From Dehalococcoidales bacterium (GTDB taxonomy: Bacteria; Chloroflexota; Dehalococcoidia; Dehalococcoidales; RBG-16-60-22), in the NCBI GenBank assembly GCA_016930185.1, contig JAFGHK010000019.1, positions 1 through 46,353 of the forward strand: a DNA stretch of 46,353 nt, in the 5' to 3' direction. A program made the position numbers and the translations under genes. Positions 5,007 to 38,510 of the stretch are shown in pieces (the first letter of the stretch is position 1; each line of letters begins with the position of its first letter). The notes below the pieces were generated by a model. The model had not been told where the DNA came from and did not search any database. It saw only the letters and a program-made list of their open reading frames with translations.

Positions 5007-6227
5007 TTACATCCGTTTTCTGACGAATAAGATAACAGCTATTACTATCAACAATACGCCTACGGCAACACCCACGATAATCAGCCAGATAAATGAGCTA
5101 CCGGGCACTGTTTCTGTATCCGCCGCTTCGGATGATGTGGGGGTGGGGGTTGAGGTCTCACTATCGATAGTACCACCACCAACAGTCGTCAGGCTGGCTT
5201 TCCCCGTTTCATCTACTGTAAGTCCTTTCGCCTGTGATGTAGTGTATATCTGCCCGCCGATTTCAAGTTCCAGCTTAAAGATATACGTACCTGCCTGCCA
5301 GCCATTACCCGGTATGTAGTTGTAGTTAATCTCGGTCTGGCTCTGCTCCAGGCGACTTGTATTGAGAATATTAACATTTTCCTGTTGAGCATCACTATTA
5401 ACAACCAGATTTACCTGAACGTCCGTGAAGGCATCCAGCAGATTGTTGATAGAACAGACCACGTTAGCCAGAACCATTTCTCCCGTGTCTCTCTGGGCGA
5501 GGGGTACTACTTCAAAGCCTTCAAAATAGACGGTTTTTACCGTCATAGTGACGCCTTTGTGCTCATCAGCAGCCACTGAAAAGCTTTCTTCGGCAAGCTG
5601 CCTGCCGGCGATAAAAGCACGTGTCAAGTAATCGCCGGGGGAAACATTAAGGTCGAGTTCTCCCGTGTCCGTGCGGGCAATTTCAAAGTTTTCATCTGTA
5701 TAAGCACGGAACAGGACTATCCTCGCCGGTACGGGAGCGCCGTCCGGGGAAAGAGTAGTGACATTTAACACACCGTAATCGCCGGTGATAGTGAGGTCGG
5801 CTTCCTGTCCGGCGCCGCCCACTATCTGAATACCGGTTAATCCCGTTTTAAACGGTTCGGCGGTAACGCCTATCCTGTAGTCGCCCGGCACGGCTTCCAT
5901 GCTGATATCAACACCGATATCAATCTTTTTCTGGGAATTGGCCGCTAACGGAAATTCATATTCCTGAAGTATTATCGTAACGCCCGGGGGTGTATTAGTG
6001 GACACTTTTACGTTAATATCTTCATCAGAATTATTGAAAACTACCACATAGATATCCGGCGTACGGAGAGAAGTGCCCTGGGGCAACTCCAGTTTCTGGG
6101 AATAAAAACTCCCTGACATGGCAAACCCACCCTGGGCTTGCACTGGCGCTACCCAGATAATAGTGCTGAATAGCGCCAGCAACCACCCAAGGCAGATCGC
6201 TTTCTTCAAAGATGAGGCCATAGCCAC
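5007..6227 (-). CDS. Surface-anchored beta-sandwich protein (signal peptide, C-terminal TM anchor)
   Basis: 406 aa; signal peptide, repeated Ig-like beta-sandwich segments, SSFIWLIIVGVAVGVLLIVIAVILFVRKRM anchor. Confidence 0.75.
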   Translation of the reverse strand: MAMASSLKKAICLGWLLALFSTIIWVAPVQAQGGFAMSGSFYSQKLELPQGTSLRTPDIYVVVFNNSDEDINVKVSTNTPPGVTIILQEYEFPLAANSQKKIDIGVDISMEAVPGDYRIGVTAEPFKTGLTGIQIVGGAGQEADLTITGDYGVLNVTTLSPDGAPVPARIVLFRAYTDENFEIARTDTGELDLNVSPGDYLTRAFIAGRQLAEESFSVAADEHKGVTMTVKTVYFEGFEVVPLAQRDTGEMVLANVVCSINNLLDAFTDVQVNLVVNSDAQQENVNILNTSRLEQSQTEINYNYIPGNGWQAGTYIFKLELEIGGQIYTTSQAKGLTVDETGKASLTTVGGGTIDSETSTPTPTSSEAADTETVPGSSFIWLIIVGVAVGVLLIVIAVILFVRKRM

Positions 6228-6244
6228 CTCCTTATTAAGTTCGA

Positions 6245-7243
6245 TTAACGATCAGCAATTATATATACAATGTTACCGCTATATGTGTCGTTCGAGAAAA
6301 CCAAGGCTATCTTCAACCACAGGGTATTGACGGTGATGTCGATACCGTCTTCATCGGTTTGCGTGCCGGTATTATCGATGTTGACACCGGTGGTATCAAC
6401 CTGCACGGCAGACCCGAAGACGTCCGAATCATAAGCCATCAGAGAGAATTCCTGGGGATCGTCACAGGTACCTGTGGAATCATAGTCCGCCGTAAAGGTT
6501 ACACCGTCCCAGGTTGCATCTGATTTAACCAGCTGGTCAAAGTTACCGTTGGATATATAGGTTACCGATATATCAGTGACTTCGTTGACGTTATCGGCGA
6601 AACCGCTACCATTGTTAACGCCGCCAAAGGGGGCGGTAGCACTGGTGGCTATTTCACCGTACCAGAGCATTTCCTTGTCACGCGTGTACAAATCGCCGCT
6701 GCCGCTGCCATCGATAGCTTCGCCATAGACGTCCCAGTTGCCCGCAGCGGGCGTTTCGGTAGCGACTTTACCCACTCTCATTACAAAGATCCACTCGCCG
6801 ATGGCTGCCGTCATATTGCTCGGTTTCGTGCAGTTAGCCGAAACAACCGACCAAGTGACAGAAGTACCGGCATCAATAGTCCACTCATTCCCGCCGCCGT
6901 CCTTGTCCCAAGTCAGGATGCCACAGCTTGTTACGTTACCTGAGCCCGGAGAGACGGGGTCGGTGCCACTGGCATCCAGGAACAGGTGCACGTCTATCTG
7001 GTCGATATCGTCTATCGTATTACCGTCTCCGGCCGAAATTTTGACGAAATAATACACCTGGGGTGAGACATTGGTAATGGTAGAGTTCCCGCTATCGTAT
7101 ATGTTCACGGCTGTAACGGTTGGAAGAACATTGAGAGGCGTGAAACTCCCGGTAACCGTGTCTTCGTCCGCCATAGCCACCGGCGCCAAGCTGAAGAATA
7201 CAGCCAAGGCCATCAAGACACCTATAAATCTGATAAGTTTCAT
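6245..7243 (-). CDS. Secreted protein related to the C-terminal half of the two paralogs upstream
   Basis: 332 aa, signal peptide ending ADE; shared block (GEWIFVMRVGKVATETPAAGNWDVYGEAIDGSGSGDLYTRDKEMLWYGEI). Confidence 0.75.
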   Translation of the reverse strand: MKLIRFIGVLMALAVFFSLAPVAMADEDTVTGSFTPLNVLPTVTAVNIYDSGNSTITNVSPQVYYFVKISAGDGNTIDDIDQIDVHLFLDASGTDPVSPGSGNVTSCGILTWDKDGGGNEWTIDAGTSVTWSVVSANCTKPSNMTAAIGEWIFVMRVGKVATETPAAGNWDVYGEAIDGSGSGDLYTRDKEMLWYGEIATSATAPFGGVNNGSGFADNVNEVTDISVTYISNGNFDQLVKSDATWDGVTFTADYDSTGTCDDPQEFSLMAYDSDVFGSAVQVDTTGVNIDNTGTQTDEDGIDITVNTLWLKIALVFSNDTYSGNIVYIIADR

Positions 7244-29204: not shown

Positions 29205-30217
<1,013 letters not shown>

Positions 30218-30218
<1 letters not shown>

Positions 30219-31084
30219 TGCTTGAGATTATTGATACTTTTCCTGCCTTTTTGAAGTACTGGAAAAAAGCACAAAACCAATCACTGGACGAGCAAATAGA
30301 AGGCTGGGAAAAAGTATATATGACTCCCTGGCCGGAGCTTCTGGCCAAGCAGTTAGATAATTACGAAGCGGATAAACTCGACTGGCGTAAAATTGCCCGC
30401 GTAAAAGTTTTCCCTCACTTTTCAAAACAAATACCCGCCATGAGGGAAGCGCATAAAAACCTGCTGGAATCCTGTGTGCCCCTTTATGAAAGAGTGCAGC
30501 ATTTATTCGATTTTAACAGTGATGTTATCGTCGTAATCTATGTGGGAATAGGATGCGGGGCTGGTTGGGTAACACCCTATCGCGATACGCCGGCAATTCT
30601 ATTCGGGCTGGAAAATATCGCCGAGTGCGATTGGAGCAACGTATCTGATATACAGGAACTAATCGCCCACGAAGCGGGACACCTTGTTCACCAGTACTGG
30701 CGGTCACAAAATGGCAAGTCCGCAGGTTCCGGCCCCTGGTGGCAGCTTTATGAAGAAGGCTTTGCCCAGCGAATTGAGAGTAAAATATGCAGCGAATATA
30801 CCTGGCACCAGGCAGATGAGTTAATGGACAGCGACTGGCTTGAGTGGTGTCAGCGCCACAAAGGCTGGCTGGCGGCTGAATTTTTAAAAAGGATAGGAGA
30901 AGCAAAATCTGTAGCTCCGTTCTTCGGTTCGTGGTTTAATATAAACGGCAAAATTGAAACAGGATATTTCCTCGGGCATGAAGTGATTACAGAACTGGAA
31001 AAAAATATCAGTATTAAAGAAATCGCCCTGTTTGACGATATTGAAGGATATTTAAAGCCGATATTAAAACAAATGATGCCATGA
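30218..31084 (+). CDS. Putative zinc metallopeptidase-like protein (HEAGH motif)
   Basis: 288 aa; IQELIAHEAGHLVHQYW plus a downstream EEGFAQ motif; GTG start overlapping the gap stop codon. Confidence 0.65.
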
Positions 31085-31111: not shown

Positions 31112-31141
31112 TTGACATTGTATTGCGGAATTGCGTAAAAT
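31112..31141 (+). promoter_or_regulatory. Promoter of FtsZ-like gene A
   Basis: TTGACA-N18-TAAAAT, containing the ATTGCGGAATTGCGTAAA motif. Confidence 0.6.
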
Positions 31142-31170
31142 GTAACATCGGCTACCTGCAAAGGTGAGTA

Positions 31171-32346
31171 ATGAAATTAGTAGTTGTTGGTTTCGGTCAG
31201 TGCGGCGGCAGAATCGCCGATGAATTCGCCCGTTTGAATAAAAGAGCCATGGGATTGCGCAGGCTCAACATCGTCACCGGCGCTTATGCGGTCAATACCG
31301 ATATCGCCGACCTTAGTGGACTAACAACCATAAAATCTAATTACGACCACCGCATTCTTATCGGCAACAAGAAGACACAGGGACACGGCGTGGGGAAAAT
31401 CAACGAACTCGGTGCGGAAATCGCCCACGAAGATGCCGATAAAATCATCGAGACAATCAGGACCACCGAGCACTTTTCAGAAACAGATGCGTTCCTGCTC
31501 ATCGCCGGGGCGGCGGGGGGCACCGGCTCCGGCGCGATAGCCGTATTGACACAGCAGATTAAAGAGCGCTACGTTGATAAACCGGTCTACAATCTCATTG
31601 TCCTTCCCTTCGAGCACGAGGTCGCTACCGAGGAAAGGACAGTCTATAACGTGGCCACATGCTTGAAGTCCAGCTATCTGGTGGCGGACGCTATATTCCT
31701 GGTGGACAACCAGCGGTACGTAATGAAAGACGCCTCGCTAATGAATAATCTGTCTAGGATAAACACGTTGATTGTCCAGCCGTTCTTCAATCTCCTCTGT
31801 GCCGGCGAGGAAAAAAGGACGCGGTATATCGGTGCCAAAATTTTAGACGCCGGAGATATTATACAGACACTGGTAGGCTGGACAACGCTCGGCTACGGGC
31901 GTTCGCAGACCAGTATATTCAAGAACCTTTTCAGCGGCCCACGAGACTTTCGCGATAAAGCCTCGGAAACCCAGCGCGGCATCCATGCCCTCGATGAAGC
32001 CATTACCGGCCTGTCCATCAAGTGTAATCCCCTGGAATCCAAGCGGGCGCTTTATCTCGTCTCTGCCCCGGCCAAGGAAATTAACGTGGACCTTATCAAA
32101 GACATGGGCACCTATATCAAAAACATGGCGCCGGAAGCTGTCATCAGGAGCGGTGATTACCCGCGTGAAAAAGGCAATCTCGATGTAACCCTGATTCTCT
32201 CGGAGATGAGCGACGTGGAGAAAGTCAGGGGCTACTTCACCAAGGCAATCAATCTCATCGCGGAACTTAAGAAACGCCAGGAAGGTATAGTAAGCACACA
32301 GCGAGGGATTGATGTTTCCATTAAGGATATTCCCTCGCTGTTATAG
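31171..32346 (+). CDS. FtsZ/tubulin-like GTPase, paralog A
   Basis: 391 aa; N-terminal GFGQCGGRIADEF, tubulin-signature AGGTGSGAI, T7-like ILDAGDIIQTLVGWTTLGYG, C-terminal KDIPSLL. Confidence 0.88.
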   Translation: MKLVVVGFGQCGGRIADEFARLNKRAMGLRRLNIVTGAYAVNTDIADLSGLTTIKSNYDHRILIGNKKTQGHGVGKINELGAEIAHEDADKIIETIRTTEHFSETDAFLLIAGAAGGTGSGAIAVLTQQIKERYVDKPVYNLIVLPFEHEVATEERTVYNVATCLKSSYLVADAIFLVDNQRYVMKDASLMNNLSRINTLIVQPFFNLLCAGEEKRTRYIGAKILDAGDIIQTLVGWTTLGYGRSQTSIFKNLFSGPRDFRDKASETQRGIHALDEAITGLSIKCNPLESKRALYLVSAPAKEINVDLIKDMGTYIKNMAPEAVIRSGDYPREKGNLDVTLILSEMSDVEKVRGYFTKAINLIAELKKRQEGIVSTQRGIDVSIKDIPSLL

Positions 32347-32495
32347 CTCGATTATTCAGTTATAATCTAACTTATAATTCCACAAGATTACTGGTTCGTC
32401 GGTAATTTTTTAATTCCTAACCGTCCGAATACCCAATCCTGCTATTCACCGCAAACACTATCAGTCCGGTGCATTAAAACGTAAGCCGGATTTAT

Positions 32496-32978
32496 TTATC
32501 CTTTGGCTATCTTGGAATAAATCTGCCAGGCCTGCTCGATTGTCTCGTCGCGCACCTGCCAGGCTTTCTCAACAGAGTTATCGCGTGTGTTGGCGGCTCT
32601 TTCGATAGCGGCTTCATAAGATCTGTTGGCTGCCTGTTCGGCTTTTTTATATTCTTCTTCAGCCTGTCGAACAGCCATTTCACGAGAGCCGGCGGCTGCG
32701 GCTATCGCTTCTTCCCGGTCTTTCGACGCTTTAGCAACGGCGTTGGAGTAAGAGCGGTTGCTCTGCTGTTCCGCCCGGCGGTAGGCCTTTGCTACCTGCA
32801 TTTCATTTTCATGATAAGCCTTGGCTACCTGCCGCTCGGCGTCCATGTAAGCGGCATAAGCCCTCTCGGCCTGACTCATTACTTCGTCAAGGGGGTTAGC
32901 AGTGCGTTCTTCTTTCGGCTCTTCAACCTCGGCAGGAGTTACTTCGACATCTTTAGCTTTCTTCTTCTGGGTAGGCAC
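32496..32978 (-). CDS. Hendecad (11-residue) repeat helical protein, 160 aa
   Basis: Charged N-terminal tail then ten consecutive 11-mers (AYMDAERQVAK / AYHENEMQVAK / AYRRAEQQSNR / SYSNAVAKASK / DREEAIAAAAG / SREMAVRQAEE / EYKKAEQAANR / SYEAAIERAAN / TRDNSVEKAWQ / VRDETIEQAWQ). SD aaggaggtgtc upstream. Confidence 0.85.
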   Translation of the reverse strand: MPTQKKKAKDVEVTPAEVEEPKEERTANPLDEVMSQAERAYAAYMDAERQVAKAYHENEMQVAKAYRRAEQQSNRSYSNAVAKASKDREEAIAAAAGSREMAVRQAEEEYKKAEQAANRSYEAAIERAANTRDNSVEKAWQVRDETIEQAWQIYSKIAKG

Positions 32979-33044
32979 CAGACACCTCCTTATAAAATCA
33001 TGTATTTTTAAATAGGTTTACTATTCAGATTCTATTCAGTGCAA

Positions 33045-33073
33045 AGTATATTGCGCACTATTTAAAAAGTCAA
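33045..33073 (-). promoter_or_regulatory. Promoter of the hendecad-repeat protein gene
   Basis: Minus strand TTGACT-N17-TATACT. Confidence 0.65.
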
Positions 33074-33154
33074 GCGAATTTTCCGCACCGCAACAGGTAC
33101 TCATATCCTTCCCGTTACATGATTTAAATGTCCGCCAATCAAGGCTAATCCGTC

Positions 33155-35308
33155 TTAATCACCCTCATCTTCTGCTTCTTCTTCATCAGGCTGCAACTTC
33201 TTGGCCTCATACATCCTGGAGAGCAGTTCCAGGCGATCGGCTATCTTTTTCTTGGTTTCTTTAGGTGTCTCTTCAGGCAGCTCTCTGGCTTTTTCTTTCT
33301 GCGCCTTACTGATTTTAGCCGCTTTATCCGACTTCTTTACGGCTTCCTTGAGAGTATCTATGGCAGCCATGGTATCCTCGACGCCGGATTCCCCGACCTC
33401 GCCCATCTTTTCCTTCGCTTTAGCAGTCGTTTTCTTCTCCAGTGCTCCAATTACGGGAGGCGCCTCTTTTTTACGACTCTTCTTCGGAGCCTCTTCCTCG
33501 GTTTCTATAGACGTCTCGACCTTATCGACGGCAGCCTCGGCTCGGCTTACGGCATCCTGTAAAGCGGTAAGCGATAAGCCGGCGGCTTCACTGGCAACCC
33601 TAGTCGATGTCTCCGTAGCCTCCTTGACGGCTTTAACGGTCCTTTCCGCCGATTCCCTGGACGCCCTGATTAGAGCATCTGTAACTTCACGGGCCGCCTT
33701 TACTGCCGCTTCGGCCGTTTCTTTGGTCTCGCGGCTGATCTGTTCCGCCCGGGTGATAGCTACCTGGATTTCTTTTTCAGTAGATTCGGCCAGATTTCTG
33801 ATAGAGGCAACGGTATTATCCATCGCCTCATGGACGGCGTTCAAAGCCTCTTCGGACGTCTCGCGGGCGGATTTGTTTGTTTCATTTGCAGTCTCCACCG
33901 CTTTTTCAGACTCCGATTTTAATGTCTCAATAGCTTCACGCGCCTTACTGGCAGATTCTTCAACGGACGCATGTGAAGTAGTTATCATTTCTTCAATTCT
34001 ACTGATTATCTCACGGAACTCCCCGGTGGCGGCTTCGGCCTTTTCTGTGGATTCCTTACCAATTGTTTCAGCCTTAGCAATAGCTTCCTTCGATTCTGCC
34101 AACGTTTTTTCAGACGCTTCTTGAGCAGCCTGAATGGCAGCCTGAGCTGCTGCCTCCAGGGCGGCTAAGGTTTTCTTGCCCTCTTCCTGTGCTTGAGTAA
34201 CTGCTTCCTGTACCGTCTTCACGGACTCATCAGCGGCTTTGGTACTATCGGCGCTGACCTTTTCCGCTTTGGTTATAGCCTCCTGGAATTTCCGGGCGGC
34301 TTCATCGGCGTTTTGTTTAGCTTCCTTACTAATGGCCTCGGTGCGTGCAGTAGCTTCCTGTGCCGCCTTAATAGCAGCTTCTGTAGTTGCTTTTGTTTCC
34401 TTAGCTACTTCATCAACCCTGTTGACCGTTTCCTGCGAGGCCTGCTTCGCCGCTTCAACCGCCTGCTTGGTCTCCTTGCTGATAGCTTCAACGCGATTCA
34501 TCGTTTCCTGCGAAGACCGCTGCGATGATTCAGCCACCTCGCGGGCAACCGTGCTGATGGTCTCCGCGCGCTTGGCGGCTTCCTCCGAAGCCCGGGCGGC
34601 CACTTCAGCGCTTTCCCGGGTGGACTTGCTGACTTTTTCCGCTTTCAGACTGGTCTCTTTAGCGACTTTATTTGTGGCTTCGGCGGCATCCTTGGCTTCT
34701 TTAGCCATTCGTTCTGCCTTCGACGTTGCCTCCCTGGCAGCCTTTACAGATTCTTCGGACGCTTCCTTGACCGCCTTTACCGATGCTTCAGCCATACTCA
34801 TGGCTTCTTGAGACGTTTCTTTGGCAGACTCCGCCGTTTTCTTGGCTTCGCGGCCTAATTCATCGATACGCGTCATTCCGTTTTGCGACAGCATCATGGC
34901 GGACTCGGCGGACTGCATGGCTTCACGGCTGACTTTCTCCGCCCGGTCGATGGCCTCCCGGAAAGCTTTTTCCATAGCCTCGGTGGTCTGCTGGGGTCGT
35001 TTAGCCACCTCTTCGGCTTTCTTGATAGCTTCATTGGCAGCCTGCAGGGTTGCCGCCATGGCTTCCTTGGACTCTTTATTTATTTGTTCCGCCCGGTCAA
35101 TAGCATCCTGGGCAGCCCTTGCCGCTTCCTCGGCAGCCATTCTGGCTTCCTTACCTATCTGCTCAGCGCGCAAAGCCGCCTCAATAGCGGTCTTGGTGGA
35201 TTTCCCAGCCGCCTCCTTGGCAACCCGGCTCAAAGCTTCAGCCCTGGCTACCGCCTTTTCAAAGTCGGTTATATTATTTTCGACTTCTTCCTGTAATCCC
35301 GGAGACAT
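33155..35308 (-). CDS. Large coiled-coil protein, 717 aa, built of 25-residue repeats
   Basis: 21-aa N-terminus then 14 contiguous 25-mers of the type RAExISKEAKxAAEAAxxAxQEAxx, further degenerate units, and a charged tail; no Cys or Trp seen. Confidence 0.88.
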   Translation of the reverse strand: MSPGLQEEVENNITDFEKAVARAEALSRVAKEAAGKSTKTAIEAALRAEQIGKEARMAAEEAARAAQDAIDRAEQINKESKEAMAATLQAANEAIKKAEEVAKRPQQTTEAMEKAFREAIDRAEKVSREAMQSAESAMMLSQNGMTRIDELGREAKKTAESAKETSQEAMSMAEASVKAVKEASEESVKAAREATSKAERMAKEAKDAAEATNKVAKETSLKAEKVSKSTRESAEVAARASEEAAKRAETISTVAREVAESSQRSSQETMNRVEAISKETKQAVEAAKQASQETVNRVDEVAKETKATTEAAIKAAQEATARTEAISKEAKQNADEAARKFQEAITKAEKVSADSTKAADESVKTVQEAVTQAQEEGKKTLAALEAAAQAAIQAAQEASEKTLAESKEAIAKAETIGKESTEKAEAATGEFREIISRIEEMITTSHASVEESASKAREAIETLKSESEKAVETANETNKSARETSEEALNAVHEAMDNTVASIRNLAESTEKEIQVAITRAEQISRETKETAEAAVKAAREVTDALIRASRESAERTVKAVKEATETSTRVASEAAGLSLTALQDAVSRAEAAVDKVETSIETEEEAPKKSRKKEAPPVIGALEKKTTAKAKEKMGEVGESGVEDTMAAIDTLKEAVKKSDKAAKISKAQKEKARELPEETPKETKKKIADRLELLSRMYEAKKLQPDEEEAEDEGD
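34196..35245 (-). repeat. Fourteen tandem diverged 75-bp coding repeats (25 aa each)
   Basis: Protein residues 22-371 split without gaps into 14 x 25 aa, each starting [RKM][AVTI][ED]. Confidence 0.85.
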
Positions 35309-35350
35309 TACCCTGCTTTCTCAAGATATTACCAGTAATCAGCATAGACT

Positions 35351-35379
35351 ATTATATTATCCAAGCGCCACTTTTTCAA
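35351..35379 (-). promoter_or_regulatory. Promoter of the 717-aa coiled-coil gene
   Basis: Minus strand TTGAAA-N17-TATAAT. Confidence 0.65.
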
Positions 35380-35441
35380 TCAGCGCAAAATATTTATATT
35401 TGTTTTATTTGTATTTTACTGTTTTTGTGATTAAAAAAGTG

Positions 35442-35453
35442 ACGCAATTGCGT
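35442..35453. promoter_or_regulatory. 12-bp perfect palindrome ACGCAATTGCGT, candidate operator in the divergent intergenic region
   Basis: Self-complementary; its right half continues into AATTGCGTAAA, also found in the promoter of FtsZ-like gene A. Confidence 0.5.
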
Positions 35454-35462
35454 AAATAAGGA

Positions 35463-35491
35463 TTGACTTTCTCAAGTCATTGTGTTAAAAA
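35463..35491 (+). promoter_or_regulatory. Promoter candidate of FtsZ-like gene B
   Basis: TTGACT-N17-TAAAAA. Confidence 0.4.
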
Positions 35492-35520
35492 TAGCATAAC
35501 TCCACTGAAAGAGGTGAAAG

Positions 35521-36693
35521 ATGAAATTAGTAGTTCTTGGCCTGGGACAATGCGGCGGTAGAATCGCTGATGAGTTTGCCCGGCTTAATAGTAAAGCCAA
35601 ATCCCGGCGCGGCATGACCATTATTACCGGCTGTTTTGCCGTAAATACAGATGCTGCCGACTTAAGCGGACTATCCAGCATCAGTAAAGACCACCGCCAC
35701 CGCATCCTTATCGGCGCCCGCAAAACCGGCGGTCATGGTGTGGGTAAAATCAACGAACTGGGTGCAGAGATAGCCAAAGAAGATTCCGATAAAATTATCG
35801 AGAATCTCCGCAATACCAAGAAATTCTTCGAGACCGATGCCTTCCTGCTCATTGCCGGGACGGCCGGCGGCACCGGTTCCGGCGCTATTTCCGTGATTAC
35901 CCAGCACCTTAAAGAACGTTATATTGACAAGCCAGTATGGAATCTGCTGGTCCTGCCTTTTGAACATGAAGAGTCCACCGAAGAGCGTACGGTATTCAAT
36001 GTCGCCACCTGTCTCAAGTCCTGCTATTCGGTGGCCGATGCCGTTTTCCTGGTAGATAATCAGAGATACGTGAGGAAAGACTCCTCTCTCCATTCCAACC
36101 TTTCCAAGATAAACGCCATGATAGCTGACCCGTTCTATAATATGCTCTGCGCCGGCGAAGAGAAAAAGTCCAAGTACATCGGCGCCAAGCTCCTTGATGC
36201 CGGCGACATTATCCAGACCGTAGTTGGCTGGACGGTTATCGGCTACGGCAAGACCACCGCGCCGCTGTTCAAACTGCCGGAGCTTCGGAGCGACTTCCGT
36301 AAGAAGGGCGCTGAAATCCAGAAGGGCATCCAGGCGATGGATGAAGCTATCAGCGAATTATCATTGAAATGCAATCCCGCCGATTCGCGCCGGGCCTTAT
36401 ACCTGGTCTCCGGGCCGGCCAAGGAAATGAACATGGACATGATTAAGGAAATCGGCGACTACATGAGAGACATCGCGCCGGAGGCCATCATCCGCAACGG
36501 CGACTACCCGCGGGAAAGAGGCGTGGTGGATGTCACCGTGCTGCTCTCCGAGTTAAGCGACGTTGAAAAAGTCCGCGACTACTACCTGCGCTCCACCGAC
36601 CTTATCCCCGAGTTCAAGAAGCGTCAGGAGGAAACCGAGGACAAGCTTAAAGCGCTGGATGACGTATCTAAGGATATACCGTCGCTTCTGTAA
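35521..36693 (+). CDS. FtsZ/tubulin-like GTPase, paralog B
   Basis: 390 aa; GLGQCGGRIADEF, AGGTGSGAI, LLDAGDIIQTVVGWTVIGYG, C-terminal KDIPSLL; colinear with paralog A. Confidence 0.88.
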   Translation: MKLVVLGLGQCGGRIADEFARLNSKAKSRRGMTIITGCFAVNTDAADLSGLSSISKDHRHRILIGARKTGGHGVGKINELGAEIAKEDSDKIIENLRNTKKFFETDAFLLIAGTAGGTGSGAISVITQHLKERYIDKPVWNLLVLPFEHEESTEERTVFNVATCLKSCYSVADAVFLVDNQRYVRKDSSLHSNLSKINAMIADPFYNMLCAGEEKKSKYIGAKLLDAGDIIQTVVGWTVIGYGKTTAPLFKLPELRSDFRKKGAEIQKGIQAMDEAISELSLKCNPADSRRALYLVSGPAKEMNMDMIKEIGDYMRDIAPEAIIRNGDYPRERGVVDVTVLLSELSDVEKVRDYYLRSTDLIPEFKKRQEETEDKLKALDDVSKDIPSLL

Positions 36694-36718
36694 GAAATCG
36701 TTTAGTGATAGCGTCATT

Positions 36719-36752
36719 AAGGGGGGTTAAAAAAGCCCCCCTTTTCTTTTTT
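36719..36752 (+). terminator. Rho-independent terminator after FtsZ-like gene B
   Basis: aagggggg-ttaaaaaag-cccccctt then ttctttttt. Confidence 0.85.
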
Positions 36753-36830
36753 AATAACAACAAAATGTTATCTAAAAACTCGGCTTTTTCGCTTGGGTAA
36801 TAAGGCGTTTTGGGGTATAATGAATCCGTA

Positions 36831-38510
36831 ATGGCTTCACAGGTATTCTACCGCAAATGGCGTCCGCAATCTCTGGGAGAAATCCTCGGGCAGGAGCACG
36901 TCACTAAGACGCTGTTGAACGCCCTGGCGAATGAAAAAGTATCCCATGCCTATCTCTTCTGCGGCCCGCGTGGCACCGGCAAAACGACCACCGCCCGCGC
37001 ACTCGCCAAGGCGGTTAACTGCCTCACCAATGGCAAGGGCGATTCCTGCAACACCTGCGAGATGTGCCAGTCCATCGCCGAGGGCAGGGCGCTCGACGTT
37101 ATCGAAGTGGACGCCGCCAGCAATACGGGCGTGGATGACATCCGCAACCTGCGGGAAAAGGTGAACTATGCCCCTAACCAGGCGCGTAAAAAGGTCTATA
37201 TCATCGATGAAGTCCACATGTTGAGCACCAGCGCCTCCAATGCCCTGCTGAAAACGCTGGAAGAGCCGCCGCCGCACGCCATCTTTATTCTGGCGACCAC
37301 CGAGGCGCATAAACTCCTGCCTACCATCCTCTCGCGCTGCCAGCGGTTCGATTTTCACCGTTATTCGCTGGACGACATGTTAAAAGTGCTTTCCCGTGTC
37401 TGCGAGGGTGAAGGCATTACCGCCGAGCCGGAAGCGCTTAAGCTAATCTCCAGGGCGGCAACGGGCAGCCTGCGGGACGCCCTTAACCTGTTACAGCAGC
37501 TAAACACTTCCTACGGCAATGACATCAAGCTCCAGCATGCGCAGGCACTACTGGGCATTTCCGGCGACCAGCGTTCCCGGGAACTGGTCGGCCATATCAT
37601 CGCCAAGGACGCCACCGCCGGAATTAACACCCTGAACAATGTCAATAACGACGGACTTGACCTGCGGCAGTTCCACAGGGAAGTCGTTGACTTTTTGCGA
37701 CTGCTATTGCTGGTCAAGACCGGCTCCGGCGAGTCGCTTGAACTGACCGCCGAAGATATTAAAGAGCTTAAAGAACTGGCTAATAAAGCATCCCTTTCGC
37801 AAATCTTGAAAGCCGTCAAGCGCTTTGGGCAGCTTGAGCTTAATTTGGATAATTATTCCACCCTGCCGCTGGAGCTGGCAATCGTCGATGCTACCCTGCC
37901 GGACGAAGAAGTCCGGGCAGAGCCCGTCCGCAAGGCAGCACCCGAACCGGCCGCTAAAAAGGCGGCGGCGCCTAAAGCCTCACCACCTCCTCCCAAATCC
38001 GAACCGGAACCAGCCCAACCGGAGGAGAAAAAAACCCCCGTCACAGAGCCTGCACCAGAATCTAGTCCCCCTGTGGCCAAAACACAACCTCCGTCAGAAT
38101 CCGGTCCCCCCAACGCCGAAACGCCTCCCGAAACCAAAACCGAGCCGGCAAAAGCGGATAATGACGCTATCACGAACGGCAGCCCCGTCGAGCAGCTGCA
38201 GGGACAGTGGAGCAAGATGATTACCGAGTCGCCGGACGGCATGGGCAGGACCCCGGCAGCCGCCCTGTTGCGGAGCGCCCGCCCCGTTTCTATTGAAAAC
38301 GACGTGCTGGTGGTGTCTTTCAAGCACCAGTACCATAAAGAAAAGATGGATATTCTTGAAAATCAGAAGATGGCCGAAAAAATCGTCAGCAGCTTCATGG
38401 GCCGTCCCTGCAAGGTGCGCTGTGTTTACGAGCACGAAAACAACCACCTGGTAAAAGCGGCCTTAAAAATGGGCGGGCAGGTCATCGAATCGGAGGGAAC
38501 ACATGAATAA
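36831..38510 (+). CDS. dnaX: DNA polymerase III subunits gamma/tau
   Basis: FYRKWRPQSLGEILGQEHVTKTLL, GPRGTGKTTTARALAKAVNC, Zn module CNTCEMC, IIDEVHMLSTSASNALLKTLEEPP; Pro-rich linker. Confidence 0.97.
   Translation: MASQVFYRKWRPQSLGEILGQEHVTKTLLNALANEKVSHAYLFCGPRGTGKTTTARALAKAVNCLTNGKGDSCNTCEMCQSIAEGRALDVIEVDAASNTGVDDIRNLREKVNYAPNQARKKVYIIDEVHMLSTSASNALLKTLEEPPPHAIFILATTEAHKLLPTILSRCQRFDFHRYSLDDMLKVLSRVCEGEGITAEPEALKLISRAATGSLRDALNLLQQLNTSYGNDIKLQHAQALLGISGDQRSRELVGHIIAKDATAGINTLNNVNNDGLDLRQFHREVVDFLRLLLLVKTGSGESLELTAEDIKELKELANKASLSQILKAVKRFGQLELNLDNYSTLPLELAIVDATLPDEEVRAEPVRKAAPEPAAKKAAAPKASPPPPKSEPEPAQPEEKKTPVTEPAPESSPPVAKTQPPSESGPPNAETPPETKTEPAKADNDAITNGSPVEQLQGQWSKMITESPDGMGRTPAAALLRSARPVSIENDVLVVSFKHQYHKEKMDILENQKMAEKIVSSFMGRPCKVRCVYEHENNHLVKAALKMGGQVIESEGTHE

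Follow-up and report, generated by a model that had tools for sequence, protein, structure and literature searches.

A CetZ-like GTPase pair with linked helical-repeat proteins at a conserved locus of Dehalococcoidales

We analyzed a four-gene cassette in a 46,353-nucleotide contig (JAFGHK010000019.1 of assembly GCA_016930185.1; hereafter, the window), which is contig C38 of a 1.8-Mb Dehalococcoidales metagenome-assembled genome (G000). The cassette consists of two paralogous GTPase genes, A and B, which bracket two genes for repeat-built helical proteins, H and C. By motif, A and B are intact GTPases that are CetZ-like rather than simply FtsZ-like. We find that the cassette is real, conserved and, as far as we could establish, uncharacterised; its strongest new points are the linkage of A to its partner genes and the exclusion of CetZ_C from peptidoglycan-making relatives. 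On balance, we favor the reading that these genes specify a filament system of the CetZ type together with its own rod partner; such a system would shape or organise the envelope in bacteria that have no cell wall.

Full-length alignment of A and B gives 67% identity, confirming the paralogy proposed in a first-pass annotation made from the sequence alone. Both proteins score far above the cut-off of 33 bits for the tubulin/FtsZ GTPase domain PF00091 (A, 109.9 bits; B, 113.7 bits) and well above the curated cut-off of 21.6 bits for the CetZ C-terminal domain CetZ_C (PF21011; 62.8 and 60.0 bits). The top PDB sequence matches of A and B are Haloferax volcanii CetZ1 and CetZ2 and Methanosaeta CetZ; for B, phmmer returned the CetZ entries 4b46 (E 4.3e-43), 4b45 (1.4e-27) and 3zid (2.7e-15). 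A Foldseek search with an AlphaFold model of B, of modest confidence (predicted local distance difference test, pLDDT, 60), likewise placed CetZ structures at ranks 1–4. AlphaFold models were used throughout for fold ranking and helix layout only. In alignments, A and B both carry the nucleotide-binding motif GGTGSG and the catalytic acidic T7 loop LDAGD, which lies opposite VDSSE of CetZ and LDFAD of FtsZ, and therefore neither looks like a dead GTPase. In a phylogenetic tree, A-type genes form one clade (35 rows, SH-aLRT 99). The same tree, built with neither tubulin nor archaeal FtsZ, places the haloarchaeal CetZ branch among Dehalococcoidia CetZ-like rows; since the branches are long, this placement of A and B relative to archaeal CetZ is tentative at best.

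Other tubulin-family assignments fit less well. Against the division FtsZ equivalog TIGR00065, A and B score 58.7 and 56.8 bits, more than 230 bits short of the cut-off of 295.2, and their neighbors are GAPDH, dnaX and recR, with no ftsA or dcw cluster. Membership in the FtsZl family (Tubulin_2, PF13809) was rejected at 13.5 and 12.8 bits, under the cut-off of 27, as was bacterial tubulin, the PDB matches being 5.0e-5 for BtubB and 3.3e-4 for BtubA compared with 4.3e-43 for CetZ. Genome G000 has two further ftsZ genes, on contigs C36 and C62 (loci L140 and L141), each adjoining an FtsA-like gene. Given these loci and the TIGR00065 shortfall, A and B are not the division FtsZ. The first-pass annotation had called them FtsZ/tubulin-like, non-division GTPases and had asked for a canonical ftsZ elsewhere in the genome; the non-division part holds, but the two are CetZ-like. 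Separately, other families of the class contain more archaeal-like CetZ proteins (L110/L142 in G185, and genes in G404, G461, G386, G392 and G463), mostly in frames of ~355–380 aa, and these give the highest CetZ_C scores (120–137 bits). L110 groups with haloarchaeal CetZ in the tree and possibly represents a separate transfer.

Comparison of gene neighborhoods showed that A travels with C and H while B stays in place. Most genomes of the window's family have the order GAPDH-A-H-C-B-dnaX-recR. In other Dehalococcoidales families, B remains beside GAPDH and/or dnaX, and A is found relocated together with C, usually also with H (L083, L081, L092, L094, L100, L102, L103, L105, L109 and L144). Across 42 A-type genes, C lies within 3.5 kb in 39 and H within 3.5 kb in 31, counts obtained with a C profile built partly from these same loci. 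A variant arrangement at L070, L071 and L073 has B-A followed by H-C reversed, and A-H-C also occurs once beyond the order, in a genome from a different family of the class (L154). A and the H/C side are almost always convergent, tail to tail; in the window's family, C and B point away from each other across a common spacer. With the same profiles, no C was found beside a B-type gene lacking A, except at L066, where the contig breaks. Only two A genes have neither partner: at L107, A starts 139 bases into the contig, and at L072 a relic of H persists at the 3′ end of A (6702–6898). Complete single-contig genomes of one family (f9) carry both an A-C pair and B. C and H follow A alone, while B keeps a fixed place of its own at the GAPDH-dnaX-recR locus. 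The earlier proposal of a self-contained four-gene system is thus upheld for the conserved coiled-coil partner, whose synteny with GTPase A holds in relatives, but not for B, which is joined to A-H-C in the window's family and some others.

We predict C to be a long rod of alpha-helix, and H to be a shorter helix built from hendecads. The self-similarity of C peaks at lags of 25 and 50 residues, and its hydrophobicity has a period of 3.58 with a power of 55, compared with a 99% shuffle limit of 7.8. H repeats at a lag of 11, with a period of 3.65–3.66 and a power of 13–15 compared with ~7 in shuffles. The 25-mer of C and the hendecad of H, both called in the first-pass annotation, are therefore real, extended repeats of coiled-coil type. 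In C, the 25-residue register is unbroken to about residue 375 and shifted afterwards; core positions are mainly alanine, with a spacing of 4-3-4-4-3-4-3, which corresponds to heptad + hendecad + heptad. An AlphaFold2 model of C (pLDDT 59) predicts an almost unbroken helix over residues 3–594, followed by a low-confidence linker (595–640) and a C-terminal helix whose conserved tag, RLExLxxMYEAK, recurs in distant C proteins. In an alignment of 10 orthologs, H shows a conserved head and tail flanking a variable middle. Searches against Pfam gave sub-threshold matches alone for H and C, with no curated family over its cut-off and no DNA-binding domain; NCBIfam gave sub-threshold matches to unrelated families alone. 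A PDB search returned no match for H and designed helical bundles only for C, and no late embryogenesis abundant (LEA) family profile matched either protein at E 0.1. Elsewhere in G000, L141 on contig C62 encodes a 537-aa Ala-rich coiled coil (5027–6640) with a hydrophobic, transmembrane-like C-terminus and no Pfam match, ~3 kb from the second ftsA-ftsZ pair.

Dehalococcoidales have no penicillin-binding transpeptidase (PF00905, 0 of 61 genomes), no SepF (0 of 61) and essentially no MreB, yet FtsZ and FtsA are present. The MreB profile PF06723 has matches in 60 of the 61 genomes, nearly all in frames of DnaK or FtsA size; the sole convincing MreB-like fragment (G013:C154:2826-3206; 321-aa frame, 3.6e-46) may be contamination. 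Dehalococcoides mccartyi has been described as lacking peptidoglycan and having a surface-layer (S-layer)-like wall, and a mraZ-mraW-ftsA-ftsZ cluster has been reported for Dehalococcoidia (PMC10608941). In a Chloroflexota sample, CetZ_C was detected in 22 of 301 genomes, all of them Dehalococcoidia. Within 148 Dehalococcoidia genomes, CetZ_C was found in 35 (14 families) and the transpeptidase in 67 (23 families), and no genome had both (Fisher p = 1.3e-11, a value that ignores shared ancestry).

A and B also share a C-terminal peptide, KDIPSLL; among the A- and B-type proteins of Dehalococcoidales, almost every one carries it in the form [KR]D[IVL]P[ST]LL. The peptide resembles the FtsZ tail DIPxFL and aligns with the C-terminal DMPSFL (DMPSFLRR) of the genome's own FtsZ. 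Haloarchaeal CetZ tails, [DE]L[DE]xLF or similar, end at the same alignment position.

We propose that A and B, either singly or jointly, would assemble with GTP into protofilaments. Their shared KDIPSLL tail would anchor them at the membrane by way of an adaptor, for which FtsA is the simplest candidate, as the FtsZ tail does. Fully extended, the C rod would measure up to ~88 nm (590 residues at 0.15 nm) and might space or cross-link A-containing filaments, docking through the short conserved helix that follows its flexible linker; H might cap or bundle the filaments, or link C to A. The likely job of such a system would be to shape and organise the envelope of cells with an S-layer and without peptidoglycan, like CetZ1 in Haloferax. 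In H. volcanii, CetZ1 is needed for rod shape and cells without it form disks only (PMC10869688). A broader proposal is that, in bacteria lacking peptidoglycan and MreB, a tubulin-family skeleton of several components operates, in which CetZ A/B filaments and a rod partner (C and H) in a role like that of microtubule-associated proteins replace the shape-giving function of the lost wall, in parallel to wall-less archaea. This we put forward tentatively, as possible but rather doubtful.

We weighed several other explanations. A and B could be division accessories that join the Z-ring via FtsA using KDIPSLL, with C and H cross-linking the ring in the manner of Zap proteins or EzrA, so that the function would be division and not shape. 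This would fit the resemblance of KDIPSLL to the tail of the genome's own FtsZ and the presence of FtsA-like genes in the absence of SepF; in addition, D. mccartyi transcripts annotated as FtsZ (DET0589 and DET0636) cluster with respiration and growth genes (PMC5102406). However, A and B lie outside the mraZ-mraW-ftsA-ftsZ cluster of the class (PMC10608941), the genome already has two other FtsZ loci, and A and B combine CetZ sequence affinity with a different C-terminal domain. We therefore judge the division role unlikely and prefer one in shape or envelope organisation, because separate FtsZ-FtsA pairs exist and because CetZ1 is needed for Haloferax rods. The same two transcripts are directly linked to hup and fdh-like operons (PMC5102406), and archaeal cetZ neighborhoods suggest type IV pili and biosynthesis (PMC9856176). 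Both observations could point to CetZ as the scaffold of a metabolic assembly or of a machine tied to the envelope, such as a respiratory complex, S-layer secretion or pili, with the rods positioning the client, instead of a general shape skeleton. Since conserved genes for pili, secretion or respiration were not seen beside the cassette, and the neighbors of B (GAPDH, dnaX and recR) are housekeeping genes, we consider this scaffold role improbable.

The low-complexity Ala/Glu/Lys composition of C and H, the lack of a curated Pfam family over its cut-off and the occurrence of stand-alone H-like genes would be expected if the two proteins were LEA-like stress or structural fillers that adjoin the GTPases without working together with them. 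In contrast, the linkage of A with C/H survives relocations and reaches another family of the class, both proteins have conserved non-repeat ends, and neither matches LEA profiles; a filler role is very unlikely. A tubulin-family GTPase with small partner genes also brings to mind DNA segregation of the TubZ kind, in which H or C would serve as the DNA adaptor. Such a system is scarcely credible for a core chromosomal locus among housekeeping genes that is conserved across the order, with no DNA-binding domain found by Pfam search in either candidate adaptor, and it was rejected on these locus and sequence grounds.

A number of observations weigh against a CetZ-type envelope-shaping system. 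C and H are low-complexity helical proteins, and an Ala-rich coiled coil unrelated to C likewise reaches 91 bits with the C profile, so that the weak C calls at L067 and L108 are unsure. C-H pairs occur without an adjacent A at L166 and L170, and H-like genes occur alone, away from any detected A or C, at L165, L167, L169, L171 and L172. The confidence of the AlphaFold models is modest for both B (pLDDT 60) and C (pLDDT 59), and KDIPSLL could stem from a CetZ tail instead of being an FtsA-binding peptide. Moreover, 46 of the 81 transpeptidase-negative Dehalococcoidia genomes also lack CetZ_C, and the mutual exclusion of CetZ_C and transpeptidase may be one evolutionary event, because peptidoglycan loss was probably a single event (PMC10284905).

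The layout of the window agrees with the gene positions and strands originally assigned from open reading frames (Table 1): GAPDH, a 288-aa gene, A, H, C, B, dnaX, a short gene and recR. Between the window and the related locus L007, differences at third codon positions account for 113/138 in A, 104/128 in B, 230/372 in C and 39/77 in H. This bias supports coding on the assigned strands and suggests that C and H are genuine genes. A Pfam search with the 288-aa gene gave no match.

The first-pass annotation had given each gene its own promoter and placed a terminator after B, and both features were recovered. A consensus promoter scan alone is weak (12 sites compared with 5.4 expected); all four −35/−10 pairs, however, are conserved in seven-genome alignments, while the A/H 3′ spacer is not, which suggests that A, H, C and B are controlled separately, as four units. 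With a conserved promoter for every gene and genes on both strands, the cassette is not a single operon. A near-palindrome overlapping the −10 element of B is a possible operator. The element AATTGCGTAAA near the promoters of A and B is present within the genus and absent from B of more distant genera, and for this reason we do not claim it.

Table 1. Genes, peptides and regulatory features of the cassette and its flanks (window positions).
Feature	Position	Strand	Remarks
GAPDH	29205-30218		
288-aa gene	30218-31084		HEAGH zinc-protease-like motif; between GAPDH and A in window genus, also L051 and L052
Promoter of A, TTGACA-18-TAAAAT	31112..31141	+	11/12 consensus; −35/−10 kept in 7 genomes
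Gene A	31171..32346	+	CetZ-like GTPase, 391 aa; paralog tied to C and H
KDIPSLL peptide of A	32323..32343	+	Conservation among orthologs and alignment with genome's FtsZ
Gene H	32496..32978	-	Hendecad-repeat helical protein, 160 aa
Conserved head of H, residues 29-75, PLDEVMSQAERAYAAYMDAERQVAKAY...	32754..32894	-	Ortholog alignment
Promoter of H, TTGACT-17-TATACT	33045..33073	-	10/12; −35 to −10 region nearly invariant in 7 genomes
Gene C	33155..35308	-	Predicted Ala-rich helical rod, 717 aa; 25-residue (7+11+7) repeats
C-terminal helix of C, residues 682-704, tag RLExLxxMYEAK	33197..33265	-	Best-predicted model block, pLDDT ~80
Promoter of C, TTGAAA-17-TATAAT	35351..35379	-	11/12; kept in 7 genomes
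Promoter of B, TTGACT-18-AAAAAT (by scan)	35463..35492	+	9/12, weaker; kept in 7 genomes
Near-palindrome TTATGCTA-AAAA-TAGCATAA	35480-35499		Overlaps −10 of B; in several relatives; 2 mismatches in window
Gene B	35521..36693	+	CetZ-like GTPase, 390 aa; fixed at GAPDH-dnaX-recR locus
KDIPSLL peptide of B	36670..36690	+	Conservation among orthologs and alignment with genome's FtsZ
Intrinsic terminator after B	36719..36753	+	10-pair stem, then T-rich tail
dnaX	36810-38510		

Among known systems, archaeal CetZ (H. volcanii CetZ1 and CetZ2, Methanosaeta CetZ) is the closest PDB and Foldseek match of A and B. Like them, it combines a tubulin-family GTPase domain with CetZ_C and catalytic T4/T7 motifs, in hosts that likewise lack peptidoglycan. 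Unlike archaeal CetZ, A and B occur in bacteria (Chloroflexota) as two 67% identical paralogs that end in KDIPSLL instead of [DE]L[DE]xLF, and A is tied to two repeat-built helical proteins. Family placement as such is not new, since CetZ-like sequences matched by a CetZ_C hidden Markov model were published for Chloroflexota-Dehalococcoidia in 2023 (PMC9871819), a group that is very probably the same as that of A and B. The accessible part of that article gives the phylogenetic placement and does not describe partner genes, the A/B paralogy, the tail peptide or a wall-less correlation; it notes coiled-coil genes near some archaeal tubulin-like genes in contexts that it calls unrelated. CetZ is called archaea-specific in the abstracts of recent reviews (PMC9856176, PMC11621097), and the first of these, on archaeal CetZ, does not mention Chloroflexota. 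Our searches of the open-access literature brought up no account of the A-H-C linkage, the tail peptide, the wall-less association or the cassette as a whole. The first-pass annotation had named three findings that would overturn its reading: lost synteny, A and B as the sole division FtsZs, and prior characterisation of these four genes. None of them emerged, the last within the papers searched.

FtsZ with ZapA/ZapB or EzrA-type partners pairs a GTPase filament with helical cross-linkers and has a similar C-terminal tail peptide, features with which those proposed for the cassette may be compared. It differs in that A and B are CetZ by sequence, lack a dcw context and coexist with separate FtsZ loci, and in that C and H match no named family. 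The BtubA/BtubB system of Prosthecobacter, with its partner BtubC, is likewise a bacterial tubulin-superfamily pair with a helical partner; A and B, however, are far closer to CetZ than to tubulin, their partners are Ala-rich coiled coils and there is no operon. Coiled-coil-rich cytoskeletal proteins of the crescentin, FilP and DivIVA/Scy type form long repeat-built alpha-helical rods, as C and H are predicted to do. Unlike these, C and H have 25-residue (7+11+7) Ala-core repeats and 11-residue repeats, respectively, match no named family and are linked to a CetZ gene.

CetZ partners are little known. Here, conserved synteny singles out candidate partners for a bacterial CetZ pair, and the class has members in culture. 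The KDIPSLL tail gives a specific prediction of FtsA binding. With CetZ_C and the transpeptidase separated across 148 members of Dehalococcoidia, what shapes bacteria that have neither a wall nor MreB becomes a testable question.

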